In this document: positions 4,794-11,332 of the stretch, one piece after another
Layout of the letters: every line of letters starts with the position of its first letter
Position numbering within the stretch: the first letter of the stretch is position 1
Assembly: GCA_013138965.1 (NCBI GenBank)
Contig: WTBT01000023.1
Span: forward strand, 1-43,678
Direction of reading: 5' to 3'
Source of the DNA: Candidatus Aegiribacteria sp.
GTDB lineage: Bacteria; Fermentibacterota; Fermentibacteria; Fermentibacterales; JCC-6
Length of the DNA stretch: 43,678 nucleotides
The notes under the pieces: generated by a model
Database searches by the model: none
What the model was told of the DNA's origin: nothing
The model's input: only the letters and a program-made list of their open reading frames with translations
Made by a program: the position numbers and the translations under genes

Positions 4794-5068
4794 GAACGGT
4801 TCATTTTTAGCGGTCTTTGTCGGAAGGCGTAGGTTCGGTTCTTTCTGTACTCCGCTTCAATGGTTATTGAGATACCTCCTCTTGTGCCGAAGTCTGCCTG
4901 AACCAGGCACTACCCTGGTTGAACAGCCCCACAACATCATCGAGAATGGTGTTGGTAACATGCTCGTGGAATATACATCTGTTGCAGTAGGTCTGGAAGT
5001 AGAGTTTCATGGATTTTGATTCTACGTTTTTTTGATCAGGTATATATGTGATTGTGATGGTGCAAAAC
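4794..5068 (-). pseudogene. queF: Decayed queF fragment (7-cyano-7-deazaguanine reductase)
   Basis: The minus strand encodes the C-terminal half of QueF, the NADPH-dependent enzyme that reduces preQ0 to preQ1 for queuosine. Visible blocks are TITITYIPDQKNVESKSMKLY, with YIPDxxxVESKSxKLY as the family signature, then IFHEHVTNTILDDVV. After a frameshift near 4880-4910 the other frame gives FGTRGGISITIEAEYRKN, matching the FTPRGGISI end of the family. The N-terminal half is missing, including the catalytic Cys of the LCPxTGQPDF segment, and the first frame stops at 4864-4866. It is therefore a non-functional relic, with no queuosine genes beside it. The rest of 4669-5138 shows no gene. Confidence 0.75.
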
Positions 5069-5138
5069 CATTCATGCGATAATAATCCGCAGTAGCTTCA
5101 TCCAGTAATGTAAGTGGGAAATATTGGGAATCAACATT

Positions 5139-5181
5139 ATTGCACATTGCCATTGACGACAATCGTATTAGGGCGTATTGT
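5139..5181 (+). promoter_or_regulatory. Promoter-like element P2 (ATTGCA-N7-ATTGACG, -10 TATTGT)
   Basis: ATTGCA at 5139-5144, seven bases, ATTGAC at 5152-5157 (-35 TTGACG at 5153-5158), then 17 bases and TATTGT at 5176-5181. This is the same geometry as the elements at 3819 and 7396. Confidence 0.6.
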
Positions 5182-5212
5182 TGAATCGAATAAAAAAGGA
5201 GGTGATTTAATA

Positions 5213-6685
5213 ATGACGAGAAGGAAAGCGATACTTTGCACGGTATACTGCGTTCTATTCCTCTCGGCGTCAGCTGGAGCACAGATCGAAATCAGCGGTC
5301 CGCAGTCCGGAATACTGGGACCTGGTACCTATCTTGTGGTAGGCGATATCAGTGTACAATCCGGCGATAGTTTAGAGATTGTTCCGGGTACTACTTTTAT
5401 CCATAACGGAGATGCGTCAAATTTTAAATGGCTGATCTCCGGCAAGTTTACCGCAGCTGGTGTCGAAGCAGACAGTATCTATTTTTTAAGCCAGAATTCT
5501 GTAGGCGTTTGGGAACGCTGGGGTGGTCTCCTTTTTTTAAGTGGCGCTCCAGCTGCGATAATTGATTACTGCGTGGTCGACGGTGGCATGGCGCATTATC
5601 AGGCTACTGGAGATAATGATGCGGTTGTATATATAAATAGCGGTTCTTCATTAACTTTGACCCATAGCCGTGTTTCCAATAACACCAGTAACATGGAAGG
5701 CGGAGGAGTCGCCGCCAATAATACCGTCCTCCTTATAGATAGCTGCCTGATTGTCAACAATATCCAGTTGGCAAAAGGAAAAGGTGTCGGAGTGAAGATT
5801 GTTGAATGCTCTGATTCCAGCATCCTGAATTCGGTAATAGCTTACAACCAATCTGCTCTTGGTGGTACTTGAGATCCCTGCGGCGGCGGTGGGGTCCACT
5901 GCCAGAACTCGAATACTTTAATTTCAAATTGCCTGATTTACATGAATGTCTCTCAGGAAGCAGGTGGTGGTATTATGGCACAAGGTAATTGTAACGTTAT
6001 CCTGAATAACAATACCATCGTATTTAATAGTACACAAAGAACTGTTGGCGGCGGAATTTGTACCCATGGTTGGAGTGGCGGTGCCGCAACCTTTTCAGGC
6101 GTGAACAATATTATCTATTTCAATACTTGTAATGGTAGTGATTCCCAATATGGCGCAGTATTTGGTGGGGGAGCCACAAGTCTCGAATATTCCTGTTGTT
6201 CCCAGGAGCTGACGGGAACCGGAAATATTACTAGTGACCCAATGTTCGTGAACGCGACAATAGACGATTATCATCTTCAGTACGGATCTCCCTGCATCAA
6301 CGCGGGGGATCCGGCATCACCACCTGACCCCGATGGCACCAGGGCTGATATGGGAGCTCTCTACTACGATCAGACCGGCATTGGCGGAGCGGTTAACCCG
6401 GCTCCCGTGTTCGAGATGTACCCGGCTTCTCCGAATCCTTTCAGTTCCATCGTGAATATTCCCTTCAGCCTTCCCGATGACGGGAATGTAAAGATCACGA
6501 TCTTCGACATAGCTGGTCGTGAAGTGTTCACGATAACTGATGAGTATTTGACTTCCGGGTTTCATAGCGAGGTGTGGGATGGCAGGAACAGCGCAGGGCA
6601 GAGGCCCCGAAGCGGTGTTTACTTCTGCAGATGTGAATTCGATGGAGCTGTTCTGACGAAGCAGCTGATATTGATTGGAGATTAG
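5213..6685 (+). CDS. Secreted beta-helix selenoprotein 1 (UGA = Sec220) with FlgD-Ig-like tail
   Basis: The 490-residue reading spans an in-frame TGA at 5870-5872. The ATG at 5213 follows AAGGAGGTGA with good spacing. Residues 1-23 are a signal peptide ending SAGAQ. A right-handed parallel beta-helix follows (short Asn/Gly-rich rungs such as VLLIDSCLIVNN and SILNSVIAYN) and continues after the TGA without any frame change. Then come a choice-of-anchor-Q-like segment (GSPCINAGDP, DPDGTRADMGALYYDQ) and a C-terminal FlgD-Ig-like domain (SPNPF, FDIAGREV, SGVYFCR, KQLILIGD). At the TGA the protein reads GGT-U-DPCGGGGVHC, so Sec and Cys form UxxC, with a further Cys six residues on. A hairpin follows at SECIS distance. 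The paralogue at 7516 has its TGA at the same place. A decayed gene is unlikely because both halves are intact and conserved. Substrate and role are unknown; a redox or metal site on an exported beta-helix is inferred. Confidence 0.82.
5873..5903 (+). promoter_or_regulatory. Candidate bacterial SECIS element of beta-helix selenoprotein 1
   Basis: Twelve bases after the UGA, GGCGGTG (5885-5891) pairs with CACTGCC (5897-5903) in a 7-bp stem with one G-T pair. The loop is GGGTC (5892-5896), 20-24 bases after the UGA. Bacterial SECIS hairpins sit inside the coding region just after the UGA with a G near the start of the loop, and the E. coli fdhF loop is GGUC. An alternative fold, GATCCC with GGGGTC, uses the same bases. 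Confidence 0.75.
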
Positions 6686-6802
6686 TTTATGAAATAACAG
6701 GGGTTTTCCCTGGAAAGTTTTGAGCAAACAAATAATATTATTTTTCTCAGTGTCCCATTGAGGTAATCTATTGCTCCGGTAACTTATCTAATATATTTAA
6801 TA

Positions 6803-6945
6803 TACGAAGTATTTTAACTGCACACGAATTGAAACGCATATCCTTCATATTCTCTAATCTACTACGGACGGAGGATGTATGCATTCAGGGCGTTTGGTCT
6901 TTTCACAATTGATGGATTACTTGCCTAGAGAGGCTTTCGGTCAAC
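6803..6945 (-). repeat. Degenerate repeat copy B (relic of the same sequence as 3645-3785)
   Basis: Block-by-block similarity to copy A: GAAGTATTTTAACTGCAC, CACAATTGATGGATTAC and GCTTTCGGTCA. The frame open in copy A is interrupted by stops here. It lies just downstream of beta-helix gene 1, between that gene and an IS110 fragment. The rest of 6686-6800 holds only a weak hairpin (CAGGG-GTTTT-CCCTG near 6699). Confidence 0.45.
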
Positions 6946-6953
6946 TCACTTAC

Positions 6954-7140
6954 AGGAACGACCTCCGGTTGTCAAGCGACAATATGTTCTTCCTGTAGGA
7001 ATATCCGGTCGGTACGGTTCAATGGCCTTGAGTAATGATAGCGGATCAGATTTCATATTGCTGTACAGCATAATGTTACCGTCAGAATCAAGAATGCATA
7101 GATACATTACTCTGGTGTGCAGATCAATTCCGCAGTAATA
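6954..7140 (-). pseudogene. IS110-family transposase fragment (N-terminus only)
   Basis: The minus strand reads YYCGIDLHTRVMYLCILDSDG, then NIMLYSNMKSDPLSLLKAIEPYRPDI, before diverging and stopping near 6952. IS110 transposases begin with an RuvC-like DEDD domain of the form YYxGIDLHxxxMxxCVLDxDG, so the family call is clear. The initiator ATG is gone (TAA stands in its place), and everything after roughly residue 50 is missing, including the C-terminal Tnp20 domain with its catalytic Ser. The element is therefore inactive. A purine-rich ribosome site (GGAGGAG, near 7175) and a possible promoter are still visible upstream. Confidence 0.7.
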
Positions 7141-7260
7141 TTAGTATGTAGTGGTATATAATCTTATTGGGGTCTCCTCCTTTGGTTTAAGGATCGCACC
7201 ACCAGCATATCGAATAGATATGAATAGTGGGAGGCCTCAATGAGTGTCAACTATTTCGAC
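7141..7260 (-). other. Relic of the non-coding end of the IS110 element
   Basis: Upstream of the transposase fragment (minus orientation) is TTGACA followed after about 18 bases by TATTCA, then a non-coding leader and a GGAGGAG site. In IS110 relatives such as IS621 the non-coding end before the transposase encodes the bridge RNA. Whether any bridge-RNA fold survives cannot be decided by eye. The remaining stretch 7261-7395 shows nothing. Confidence 0.3.
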
Positions 7261-7395
7261 AATTCCCAAGCTCAGTATAGTATATATTATCATACATTGT
7301 GATTAGAATCTATGCAGTTAATGCATGAAATATGCAATATAATCCAGCAGTATATACTAATCATCACCGTGAAGCAAGTTACATAAATGCATAAC

Positions 7396-7438
7396 ATTGC
7401 AGATAGCTATTGACGACACACTAATTGACACACATATT
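7396..7438 (+). promoter_or_regulatory. Promoter-like element P3 (ATTGCA-N7-ATTGACG, -10 CATATT)
   Basis: ATTGCA at 7396-7401, seven bases, ATTGAC at 7409-7414 (-35 TTGACG at 7410-7415), then 17 bases and CATATT at 7433-7438. The spacing is identical to the elements at 3819 and 5139. Confidence 0.6.
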
Positions 7439-7515
7439 TCTATTAGATGAATTTAGAAGTAAGATGGCATCATGTTTTATTGAGAGTATACTGAAAATGA
7501 AGGAGGATTATTCAA

Positions 7516-8958
7516 TTGAAACACAGGAATATGACCCTGTTTGCAGTGTCCTGTATTATGCTTTTCGCGGCATCAGCTGGTGCGCAAACGGAAATCAGCG
7601 GTCCGCAGTCCGGAACGCTTGGTCCGGGAACATATCTTGTCACCGGTGAGATTTCGGTTGCGTCCGGCAATTCCCTTACTATTGAACCGGGAACAACATT
7701 CCTTCATAATGGTAACCATCAATGGCTTGTTTCCGGTACCTTTAGCGCGATCGGGACTGAGACTGACAGTATCCGTTTCCTGCGCCGGGAACCGGTCAGC
7801 GGTCACCGATGGGGAGGTCTACATTTTATAGGCGGCGCTCCGATAGCCAATCTTGATTACTGTGTTGTTGATTATTGTTACATTGATTACAGCTCAAGCT
7901 ATTATGCCAGCGTGAATGTTTACAACGGAGGGCTTGGGATATCTCTTAAGCACAGCACTATTACAAATGGATATGTAGGCTACTATGGCGGAGGATTGTA
8001 CGCAAAGAACGCATCAGTCCTGATAGACAGCTGCCTTATAGCGTACAACTATCAATGGAATCACTCCAGGGGAACTGCAGTCTACCTTGTGGGATGTGAT
8101 GATTCGGAGCTTCTCAACTCGGAATTTGGACATAATTCCTGCAGTATGAGCGGCTCTTGAAGCTCCTGCGGCGGCGGTGGGGTCCACTGCGAGAACTCGA
8201 ATACTCTGATTTCACACTGTATTATTCACAAGAATACGCTTCATGATCCCGGTGGAGGTGTGATGGCGACCTATAGCTGCAATGTAACGCTGGTTAACAA
8301 CACAATAGTTCTTAACAGCACAAACGGCACTGGAGGCGGGATCTGTACAATGGAAACCGGATCAACCTTCTCAGGTGTGAACAATATCATCGTCTTCAAC
8401 ACCTCGGGAGATAACACACAGTACGGTACGATGTACGGAGGAGGGGCAAGTACCCTGACTTATTCATGCATCTCGCAGGATATGCCCGGAATAGGTAACA
8501 TCAATGACACGCCCATGTTCGTGAATGCGACTGAAGATGATTACCATCTTTCTTACGGATCTCCCTGCATCGACGCGGGGGATCCGGCATCACCACCTGA
8601 CCCCGATGGCACCAGGGCTGATATGGGAGCTCTCTACTACGATCAGACCGGCATCGGTGGAGCTGTTAATCCGTCTTCCGCATTCGAGATGTACCCGGCT
8701 TCTCCGAATCCTTTCAGTTCCATCGTGAATATTTCCTTCAGCCTTCCCGATGACGGGAATGTAAAGATCATTATCTACGATATAGCCGGTCGTGAGGTGT
8801 TCACTATAACTGATGAGTATTTAACTTCCGGGTTTCACACCGAGGTGTGGGATGGCAGGAACAGTGCAGGGCAGAGGGCCCGGAACGGTGTTTACTTCTG
8901 CAGATGTGAATTCGATGGAGCTGTTCTGACGAAGCAGCTGATATTGATTGGAGATTAG
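7516..8958 (+). CDS. Secreted beta-helix selenoprotein 2 (UGA = Sec215) with FlgD-Ig-like tail
   Basis: The 480-residue reading contains an in-frame TGA at 8158-8160. The TTG at 7516 is chosen because AGGAGG lies nine bases before it; an ATG at 7531 is the alternative. A signal peptide ends ASAGAQ. It is a paralogue of the protein at 5213 throughout: the same EISGPQSG-LGPGTYLV start, beta-helix rungs (SVLIDSCLIAYN, VTLVNNTIVLNS), GSPCIDAGDP and DPDGTRADMGALYYDQ segment, and a FlgD-Ig-like tail. The local context of the TGA is SGS-U-SSCGGGGVHCENS. U, the following Cys, GGGGVH and the second Cys are all kept, while the two residues between U and C differ. This pattern is expected of a real UxxC motif, not a random stop. 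The last roughly 390 bases are nearly identical to gene 1. It is probably anchored or exported by a type IX-like route; its function is unknown. Confidence 0.82.
8161..8191 (+). promoter_or_regulatory. Candidate bacterial SECIS element of beta-helix selenoprotein 2
   Basis: GGCGGTG (8173-8179) pairs with CACTGCG (8185-8191) through six pairs, with only the outermost pair lost. The loop is GGGTC (8180-8184), again 20-24 bases after the UGA. The stem-loop is almost identical to that of gene 1, although the six bases directly after the UGA differ. Confidence 0.72.
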
Positions 8959-9058
8959 TAATGAAGGTTATTTGAATATTCTGTGGGAAGCAATGTTCTT
9001 GGCATTGATGAGAAATTGTCCATAGCCATAGGTAGTGTAACGTAATGATTGGAGAAGT

Positions 9059-10477
9059 ATGAAAAGTTCGGCAATGTATCCTGTATTATTGCTATCTGGC
9101 ATTCTTGCCAGTTCTTACGCACAGACGATACATTTCGGTGATAAGCAGATAATTACAACTAACGCCTGGGGTGCAGGAACGGTATATGCTGCAGATCTGG
9201 ATGGGGATGGTGATATGGATGCACTTTCAGCCTCCGGTAATCAGAATAAAATCGCATGGTATGAAAACGATGGATCAGGTAATTTCGGTCCGCAGCAAAT
9301 CATTTCTACCAGCGCAAATGATGCTATATATGTGCATGCCGAAGATCTGGACGGTGATGGCGATATGGATGTGCTGTCAGCTTCCTGTGTCGATAATAAG
9401 ATTGCCTGGTATGAAAATGACGGTTCTGGAAATTTCGGGATCCAACGAATAATTACCACCAATGCAAACTATGCGTACTCTGTATATGCCTCGGATCTGG
9501 ACGGGGATGGTGATCATGATGTGCTTTCTGCTTCCGTTAGTGATGATAAAATTGCATGGTATGAAAATGATGGCTCAGGCAATTTTGGAACTCAACAGAT
9601 TATTTCAACTGAAGTAGATGCCCCTAATTATGCTTACGCTGCCGATCTGGATGGAGATGGAGATATAGATGTGCTTTCTGCTTCAAGTTTAGATAATAAA
9701 ATAGCCTGGTACGAAAATGACGGTTCCGGCAACTTCGGATCGCAGCAGATTATTTCTACCGAAACTCATGGAGCTGCATTTGTTTATACTGCTGATATAG
9801 ACGGGGATGGTGACCCGGATGTACTTTCAGGTTCATTTGCTGATGACAAAATCGCGTGGTATGAAAATGATGGTTCAGGCAATTTCGGAACACAACAAGT
9901 TATCTCTACTGATGCCGATGGAGTAATAACTGTGTATTCAATTGATTTAGATAATGATGGCGATATGGATATACTTTCCGCTTCGGGTAATGATAATAAG
10001 ATTGCCTGGTATGAAAATGATGGTTCAGGTAATTTTGGAACACAACAAATCATCTCTACGAATGTATCATATGCTGTCAGTGTATTTGCAGCAGATTTAG
10101 ATAGTGACAACGATCCGGATGTACTTTCTGCATCCTTTTGGGATGATGAAATCGCCTGGTATGAAAACCTGCCGCTGACAGGCATCAATGATAATGCCAA
10201 TCCATCATCCAATACCCTGATGGTTTCCCCTTGCCCATCTGCTTCCTCAGTCAAGATTACCTTCAGCCTTCCCCATCAGGGTAACCTTAGAGTATCCATA
10301 TATGATATCATGGGGCGTGAGGTTGTTACAATCGCTGATCAATTCGCTACCGCCGGTGACTACAGTATGACGTGGGATGGCAGGAACACTGCAGGACAGA
10401 AAGTTCAGAGCGGCGTTTATTTTTGCAGGTATGAATTGGATGGTATTTCCCAGAATCGTGAAATCATACTGTTGTAA
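9059..10477 (+). CDS. Secreted seven-bladed FG-GAP/VCBS beta-propeller with FlgD-Ig-like tail
   Basis: This 472-residue protein starts at the ATG after GGAG (9051). The signal peptide ends near SSYAQ. Residues about 43-375 are seven tandem units of 50 residues, each with a calcium-binding loop (DLDGDGDMD type), then VLSAS, then KIAWYENDGSGNFG, then QQIIST. The partial strand before unit 1 can close the ring with unit 7, as in integrin-like propellers. The last unit has lost the NDGSGNFG part. The C-terminal domain (YDIMGREVVTI, WDGRN, SGVYFCRYELDG) matches those of the beta-helix proteins. It probably acts at the surface in adhesion or polymer binding; the ligand is unknown. No promoter like those of its upstream neighbours is visible in the 100-base gap, so it may be read through from gene 2. 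Confidence 0.85.
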   Translation: MKSSAMYPVLLLSGILASSYAQTIHFGDKQIITTNAWGAGTVYAADLDGDGDMDALSASGNQNKIAWYENDGSGNFGPQQIISTSANDAIYVHAEDLDGDGDMDVLSASCVDNKIAWYENDGSGNFGIQRIITTNANYAYSVYASDLDGDGDHDVLSASVSDDKIAWYENDGSGNFGTQQIISTEVDAPNYAYAADLDGDGDIDVLSASSLDNKIAWYENDGSGNFGSQQIISTETHGAAFVYTADIDGDGDPDVLSGSFADDKIAWYENDGSGNFGTQQVISTDADGVITVYSIDLDNDGDMDILSASGNDNKIAWYENDGSGNFGTQQIISTNVSYAVSVFAADLDSDNDPDVLSASFWDDEIAWYENLPLTGINDNANPSSNTLMVSPCPSASSVKITFSLPHQGNLRVSIYDIMGREVVTIADQFATAGDYSMTWDGRNTAGQKVQSGVYFCRYELDGISQNREIILL

Positions 10478-10543: not shown

Positions 10544-11332
10544 ATGAAACTTTATTTGGTGATTCTCTGTGTTCTCAGTGCTCTGTGCATCGCAGAGACA
10601 ATCCCAGATTTCACGGTAACAGATCTTGATGGGACATCTCATCATCTCTATGAGTACCTGGATCAGGGAATGTATGCTGTGTTGTGCTTTTCAATGCCTC
10701 AGTCAGGTTGAGGCAGTTGCTGTCTCGCAGTTGGCGAGATGAATGATGCCTACGAGTTGTATAACGAGAATACCGGTCCTCTTCTGGTAATTACTTTCTA
10801 TCAGCAGTGGGGTTCCGGAGATGATCAGGAGTGTATTGATTTCAATAACTCTCAGGGAGTATTATATCCGACCGTAGCTGGAAGCCAGGGTGAACCGTTC
10901 ATAGATCAGTGTACGTTCATTCAAGCCTATACTGAGTACGACATCGTTGCCCCGAACAGGGAAATTGTGGAAATGAATATCAGTCCTTATGACGGTGTTC
11001 TATTGCAACTCTTGGAGGAGCATATTCAGACTGGTATTAGCGGTTCAAGTGATAATCTGATCCACAGTATATCACTATCACCAAATCCAGCAGCCGAGTA
11101 TTTGAATCTCAATTATTCTTTACAAAACACCAGCGAAGTAAAAATTGAAGTTTATAATATTGCGGGGCAGTTGGTGCGGCAACTTGTTGATGAGGACATG
11201 CCGCAGGGTAGTCACGATTTCATCTGGCAAGGGACAGATGATTCTGATAGGAGGCTTCCCAGCGGGATTTACATCTTCAGAATTGAAACTGAAGAAATGG
11301 TTGTTAACAGAGTAGTAACGCTTGTGAATTGA
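10544..11332 (+). CDS. Secreted thioredoxin-like selenoprotein (UGA = Sec56) with sorting tail
   Basis: The 262-residue reading includes an in-frame TGA at 10709-10711. The ATG at 10544 follows AAGGAGG (10531-10537). Residues 1-18 are a signal peptide. Then comes a redoxin start typical of the AhpC/TlpA/thioredoxin-like fold: IPDFTVTDLDGTSHHLYEYL, then MYAVLCFSMPQSG-U-GSC. Redoxins have WCxxC at this position, so UGSC is a selenocysteine form of the catalytic motif. The frame continues with LAVGEMNDAYELYN and LLVITFYQQWG, and ends in a FlgD-Ig-like domain (LSPNPA, VYNIAGQLV, SGIYIFRIE). A perfect 6-bp SECIS-like stem follows the UGA. The product is probably an extracytoplasmic thiol or peroxide redox protein. 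If the UGA were a stop, only a 55-residue stub would be made, leaving a conserved open frame behind it. Confidence 0.87.
10712..10750 (+). promoter_or_regulatory. Candidate bacterial SECIS element of the thioredoxin-like gene
   Basis: The upper stem is TCTCGC (10723-10728) with GCGAGA (10734-10739), perfectly paired, with loop AGTTG 18-22 bases after the UGA and a G at loop position 2. Two G-T pairs extend it. A lower stem, GGCA (10712-10715) with TGCC (10747-10750), closes it across an internal loop. Confidence 0.75.

Follow-up and report, generated by a model that had tools for sequence, protein, structure and literature searches.

A bacterial reading frame that continues past an in-frame UGA may be decaying, may have that codon read as an ordinary amino acid or may insert selenocysteine (Sec) there, and this question is raised by a gene at positions 5213–6685 (gene 1) of a 43,678-nucleotide stretch, the window, from Candidatus Aegiribacteria sp. 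in the phylum Fermentibacterota. It forms contig C93 in a draft genome of 2.92 Mb that is 94% complete, and its three UGA genes described below, with their Sec codons and hairpins, lie on the forward strand. We hold it to be highly probable that gene 1 is a genuine selenoprotein gene, a judgement that covers the decoding of Sec and the nature of the protein and excludes its role; Sec is very probably built into a surface-directed protein of a bacterium from a little-studied phylum.

As the original prediction had described, the frame of gene 1 stays open through a single in-frame TGA: it starts at ATG 5213, with AAGGAGG closely 5' of the start, carries TGA at 5870–5872 (residue 220 of 490) and stops at TAG 6683–6685, and D-P-C-G-G-G-G-V-H-C directly follows the TGA. 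The same prediction had run the protein from a signal peptide to a FlgD-Ig-like tail. A signal-like stretch ending in SASAGAQ is indeed seen at the N-terminus when judged by eye, and the C-terminal part (residues about 405–490, positions 6425–6682) is a type IX-like sorting tail, scoring 31.6 bits against TIGR04183, the T9SS type A sorting domain (cut-off 23), while its 26.5 bits against FlgD_ig fall slightly below the cut-off of 27.

UGA terminates 13 of the 24 window genes in the ORF list drawn up in this analysis, so the code is not reassigned, and a genome-wide reassignment of UGA was ruled out. One gene uses UGA both ways: the window holds an exported AhpC/TSA-like protein gene (10544–11332; 27 bits against AhpC-TSA, cut-off 26) with a sorting tail, a U-G-S-C motif whose presumed Sec codon lies at 10709–10711, and a UGA as its terminal stop. 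Its internal UGA is followed by a SECIS-like hairpin of 8 bp with loop AGUUG (10721–10741), which folds better than shuffled sequences (z −2.89). An amino acid other than Sec, inserted by reassignment or near-cognate read-through, would also leave the frame of gene 1 open on either side of the UGA, yet we rate this the least probable reading of all, given the uses of UGA as a stop just listed, a complete Sec machinery and a constrained GGU-loop hairpin after the internal codon, both described below.

Ten genes make up the family to which gene 1 belongs, spread over 5 of the 42 Fermentibacterota genomes: the window's genome has four, G016 has three, and G031, G025 and G011 have one apiece. In all ten, TGA stands at one alignment column within the motif U-x-x-C-G-G-G-G-V-H-C. 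A pattern allowing any TGN at the Sec codon matched exactly ten sites in the 42 genomes, every one of them TGA, so that this search found no TGC, TGT or TGG form of the beta-helix; the reversed pattern, used as a control over the same genomes, had no match. It had been proposed that homologues be searched for Cys or Sec at this position, and the answer among the 42 genomes is Sec in ten of ten rows and no Cys homologue, which means that the Sec rows alone provide it. With two peptide patterns (CGGGGVHC and one N-terminal pattern), a scan of 84,980 species' genomes returned five loci, of which four were Fermentibacterota contigs, matched by sequence to G016, G031, G025 and G011, and the fifth was a Calditrichaeota locus (L094) encoding a short beta-helix without Sec; the Sec family was not seen outside the phylum in this two-pattern scan. 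The named assemblies with the family are Candidatus Aegiribacteria, Sabulitectum and Fermentibacteraceae, and among plasmids the matches, in two Rhodothermus plasmids, were to the tail only.

The tandem neighbour of gene 1 shows the same arrangement. Gene 2 (7516–8958, with a TTG start in frame as read) encodes a beta-helix paralogue 65% identical to gene 1, and its one TGA, the Sec codon at 8158–8160, falls in the same alignment column and is followed by a SECIS-like hairpin of 7 bp with loop GGU (8174–8190). A six-frame scan, which required a start codon, a frame open before and after the UGA and a hairpin with a G[GU] loop, gave three sites in the window, 5870, 8158 and 10709, with thresholds that were chosen after the cases were known; the scan missed one SelD (L195) and gave one probably spurious site (L197:319). 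Both the tandem paralogue and the third UGA gene had been missed by the original prediction.

A true stop at 5870, either in decaying genes or in a truncated half beta-helix whose second half restarts separately, draws some support from the lack of a Cys form that would prove that the residue matters, and from an ATG at 5942 that could open an ORF in the downstream half. We regard it as very unlikely. Five assemblies carry between them ten genes with UGA at this very codon, which led us to reject both a pseudogene and a sequencing error, and sequence comparison points to purifying selection downstream of the UGA, where dN/dS was 0.10–0.22 in five of six pairs (the sixth being saturated in dS); upstream it was 0.07–0.13 in three of the six pairs, the other three being saturated. 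The synonymous sites frozen right after the UGA and a structural model that is continuous across the site, both treated below, also speak against a stop. As a separate observation, locus L090 contains a beta-helix relative with a TGA inside its sorting tail (position 813) and a weak hairpin (5 bp, loop GATTT), and this relative is possibly a decayed copy.

Decoding of UGA as Sec would depend on a dedicated machinery, and the set of SelA, SelB, SelC (tRNA-Sec) and SelD is complete in the window's genome, as had been suggested for checking. The tRNA-Sec scores 75 bits and is called tRNA-SeC with anticodon TCA by ARAGORN, SelB scores 333.8 bits, and SelA (511 bits) adjoins SelB. SelD is present twice (G000:C74:6999-7931 and G000:C49:35877-36803), and both genes have an in-frame TGA, in G-U-A-A-K and G-U-A-G-K respectively; since the Sec site of SelD is listed as UxxK in Table 1 of PMC13188914, these serve as a positive control. 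At least nine other genomes of the phylum also have two SelD matches. Among the 42 genomes SelB was above cut-off in 35, tRNA-Sec was detected at E ≤ 1e-10 in 36 and SelD was found in 35, and the five genomes with the beta-helix family all have SelB and SelD, with tRNA-Sec detected in four and not found at E ≤ 1e-10 in the fifth, G011. We count 16 genes in the window's genome with an internal UGA read as Sec, namely four beta-helix, two Kelch, three FG-GAP, two propeller-like, two UxxC, one AhpC/TSA-like and two SelD genes.

Bacterial SECIS elements are modelled in PMC13188914 as a stem, capped by a small G[G/U] loop, 16–37 nt after the UGA. The hairpin of gene 1 (5885–5903) can pair in two ways, either as the predicted 7 bp with loop GGGUC at bases 20–24 after the UGA, or as 8 bp (GGCGGUGG/CCACUGCC) with loop GGU, the form that was compared with that model (8 bp, loop GGU, offset 20). 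A stem of at least 7 bp with a GGY loop in the SECIS range follows only 3 of 1947 TGA triplets when both strands and all frames of the window are considered, and the three are the two beta-helix UGAs and the TGA at 8147, whose hairpin is simply the one that belongs to 8158, 11 nt further downstream; GGY-loop hairpins after the beta-helix UGAs are thus more frequent than chance. When other G-containing loops are allowed, equally strong stems follow 67 of 1947 TGA triplets, and for this reason the hairpin alone is weak evidence; the strong evidence for Sec decoding is the conservation across genes. Folding energy was unusable as proof for the window's beta-helix hairpins: the 44-nt stretch of gene 1 folds at −14.4 kcal/mol, no better than shuffled sequences, z for the two window hairpins is an ordinary 0.05 and 0.46, and plain stems are common. 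L093, the most distant beta-helix copy, has a hairpin that folds better (z −2.16). The RNA folding that had been recommended thus finds the stem in place with ordinary energies, and an Rfam search of 5000–9100 at E up to 10 gave one chance match and nothing SECIS-like.

Comparison of the genes is more informative. The stem is paired in all eight distinct rows of the beta-helix family and shows one pairing-preserving change (G-C to G-U); in these eight rows, where the hairpin hardly varies, there are no double (compensatory) changes, and thus no case for covariation in this family. Synonymous positions provide a different measure. Across the ten genes, the mean pairwise difference at third positions is 0.10 in the eight invariant codons after the UGA compared with 0.55 in the 88 other codons for invariant amino acids, and the third position is fully conserved in six of those eight codons as against 2 of the 88. 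When eight columns were drawn at random 100,000 times, the difference was never as low as that after the UGA, and the values hardly move (0.12 vs 0.57) when two near-duplicates are left out. The RNA stretch after the UGA is conserved beyond the needs of the peptide. The original prediction that this UGA is read as Sec is thus supported by the tRNA-Sec, SelA, SelB and SelD genes, by the UGA in ten of ten genes with the motif and by the conservation of the RNA. The UGA at 5870–5872 would be read by tRNA-Sec and SelB, SelB being recruited by the GGU-loop hairpin about 20 nt downstream, which the codons of a glycine-rich turn in the next beta-helix coil (C-G-G-G-G-V-H-C) would themselves supply.

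An AlphaFold2 model of the gene 1 product, built from eight aligned sequences, is of moderate confidence (mean pLDDT 71.1, pTM 0.70) and has short regular strands both before and after residue 220, with Sec220 placed between strands 208–210 and 228–231. The model supports a parallel beta-helix that is continuous across the Sec site. Foldseek ranked a DHS dehydratase and phage tailspikes highest among its PDB matches; pectate lyase and AlgE-type epimerases came next, with FlgD for the tail, and TM-scores were low. A sequence profile compared with the PDB found the tail alone confidently (FlgD), no Pfam beta-helix model matched the product at E 0.001, and around the UxxC the model has a beta-helix and no thioredoxin profile matched. 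The exported beta-helix of the original prediction, with its sorting tail, is supported by profile matches and this moderate-confidence model, and the product would be exported as one continuous helix and displayed on the surface by way of its tail. Four relatives that lack the stop and are 30–33% identical have a seven-residue gap at the Sec loop and keep the GGG turn, so that the Sec loop seems to have been inserted ahead of the turn whose codons form the hairpin. Sec and the cysteine of the U-x-x-C pair would then sit in a short loop between two coils.

The mechanism of decoding is a known one, shared with SelB/bSECIS selenoproteins of the Escherichia coli fdhF type, in which UGA, machinery and a small G[G/U]-loop stem in the same range recur (PMC13188914). 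The present proteins differ from these in their parallel beta-helix, in the absence of a Cys form from our searches and in a hairpin made of repeat-turn codons. In their N...GGG turns, modelled beta-helix and sorting tail they resemble polymorphic-outer-membrane-protein-like, right-handed parallel beta-helix proteins with a T9SS-type tail, and the four relatives at 30–33% identity share this layout, but have neither the stop nor the seven-residue Sec loop. UxxC is a common Sec motif, found in selenoproteins of the thioredoxin and AhpC/TSA folds, and the U-G-S-C gene of the window is of this known kind (PMC13188914, Table 1); unlike those, the beta-helix family has no thioredoxin fold, and the AhpC/TSA-like protein here bears a surface sorting tail. 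Table 1 of PMC13188914, a 2026 review, has 119 families and lists no beta-helix, Kelch or FG-GAP family, in agreement with the prediction of a family not previously described, and passages of PMC12013277 and PMC8318568 contain none either. According to PMC13188914, known selenoproteins almost always have Cys homologues, on which widely used search methods rely, although the decoding mechanism does not demand them; since our search turned up no beta-helix with Cys, methods based on Cys/Sec pairs could systematically miss such families. The exported UGA proteins that were submitted matched no NCBIfam selenoprotein family, and among open-licence papers we found no literature on such families or on selenium in this phylum. 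Deng et al. 2026 (Cell Rep 45:116760) might contain some of these families. The protein family, its surface location, its missing Cys form and the wider set found across the phylum all appear to be new.

That set comprises several exported scaffolds besides the beta-helix, which in the window's genome show the same arrangement of UGA and hairpin, with compensatory changes in two families; the original prediction had not recognised the beta-helix as one such family of several. Contig C49 carries two Kelch genes (motif C-U-x-x-x-C-Q-V-W-Q-S) and one FG-GAP gene (U-C-T-G-A-T), each with a UGA followed by a GGU-loop hairpin. In the Kelch genes (L117:7080-8393 and L117:9738-10973), both of which terminate in UGA stops, the CQVWQ codons pair into a stem capped by a GGUC or GGUU loop, and a search with the Kelch protein at E ≤ 1e-50 gave, in one of the 41 remaining genomes, a match that is 68% identical and has one TGA. 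Contig C3 has a gene (C-U-G-S-P) that we label propeller-like, Pfam having given no repeat family, and a small U-x-x-C gene beside two beta-helix genes. Propeller-like exported proteins with C-U-[GS]-S-P are encoded at L116 position 1476 and L198 position 2177 (contigs C3 and C48), and each of these genes adjoins a U-x-x-C gene. Locus L090 holds five consecutive UGA genes on one strand, three beta-helix, one FG-GAP and one Kelch. TIGR04183 scores above cut-off in the beta-helix, Kelch, UxxC, AhpC/TSA-like and L090 FG-GAP proteins, and below the cut-off of 23 in the C49 FG-GAP (19.9) and C3 propeller-like (18.5) proteins.

The FG-GAP family (motif G-U-C-T-G; L117:8465-9724 on C49 and L131-L160) by itself reaches 36 of the 42 genomes of the phylum. 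The C49 protein has 101 matches there at E ≤ 1e-25, of which 96 contain exactly one TGA and five none, three of the five not covering the Sec residue. Among 34 readings of the Sec codon, taken from 32 loci and including one duplicate record, there are 32 TGA, one GAA and one TGT, the copy with TGT having a TGA directly after it. The copy with GAA (Glu; L141, G006:C35:13816-14997) keeps the hairpin sequence and looks like a recent loss of Sec. In 31 rows, 29 of them distinct, 96.1% of the hairpin's cells are paired and seven are double-change cells; its covariation score was reached by none of 500 shuffles, which ignore the relatedness of rows, while the numbers of pairs with a double change (two) and of pair types were reached by 194 and 192 of the 500. 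One stem pair goes from A-U to G-C in 3 of the 29 distinct rows, and the second half of this change is a Val to Ala replacement in the protein, which shows how a SECIS element can be fitted into a protein motif. The AlphaFold model of the FG-GAP protein was poor (pLDDT 51.4) and was not used.

The small U-x-x-C protein (L116:25-615, L161-L190) has 93 matches in 37 of the 42 genomes at E ≤ 1e-8, and its Sec codon, read in 35 places with three further rows not spanning the site, is TGA in 32 and TGC in three (G020, G023 and G031), by which codons it would be a classical Sec/Cys pair. Its hairpin, in 32 rows, has four double-change pairs; one of 500 shuffles matched that number and none matched its covariation score, again in a test that ignores how the rows are related. 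Pfam gave no match for this protein, which may be thioredoxin- or Omp28-like.

We think it rather probable that Fermentibacterota display Sec on a whole set of exported scaffolds (beta-helix, Kelch, FG-GAP and propeller-like proteins as well as small UxxC and AhpC/TSA-like ones, some of them from adjacent genes) that would form an extracellular layer of selenol redox or metal handling, the SECIS hairpin of the repeat scaffolds being made from codons of the protein's own motif (GGGGV, CQVWQ, NPQVVD).

From the motif and gene neighbourhood of the gene 1 product, we take its most likely role, at about even chances, to be that of a surface selenol/thiol redox pair, with a selenenylsulfide between Sec220 and Cys223 that would work outside the cell. 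The neighbourhood includes the AhpC/TSA-like U-G-S-C gene of the window and, on C3, the UxxC gene beside two beta-helix paralogues, and the exported proteins of these nearby genes are candidate redox partners. The main rival accepts the insertion of Sec and has it serve surface binding of soft metals or metalloids (e.g. Hg, Cu, Cd, As) in place of redox turnover. In its favour, several repeat scaffolds with no relation to one another carry Sec/Cys pairs of varied geometry (U-x-x-C, C-U, U-C), a pattern more in keeping with binding than with a single enzyme fold, and PMC13188914 states that ligand binding is predicted for about 20% of known selenoprotein families and that metals are involved in about 70% of this binding. 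We nevertheless consider it a lesser possibility, as the clusters concerned also encode oxidoreductase-like UGA proteins, and no metal transporter or regulator was noticed among the few annotated neighbour genes. With these exported families, the part that selenium plays outside the cell in these bacteria becomes testable. The AhpC/TSA-like gene follows gene 1 at a distance of 3.9 kb and gene 2 at 1.6 kb, and between gene 2 and the AhpC/TSA-like gene, at 9059–10477, the window encodes an FG-GAP protein without a UGA.
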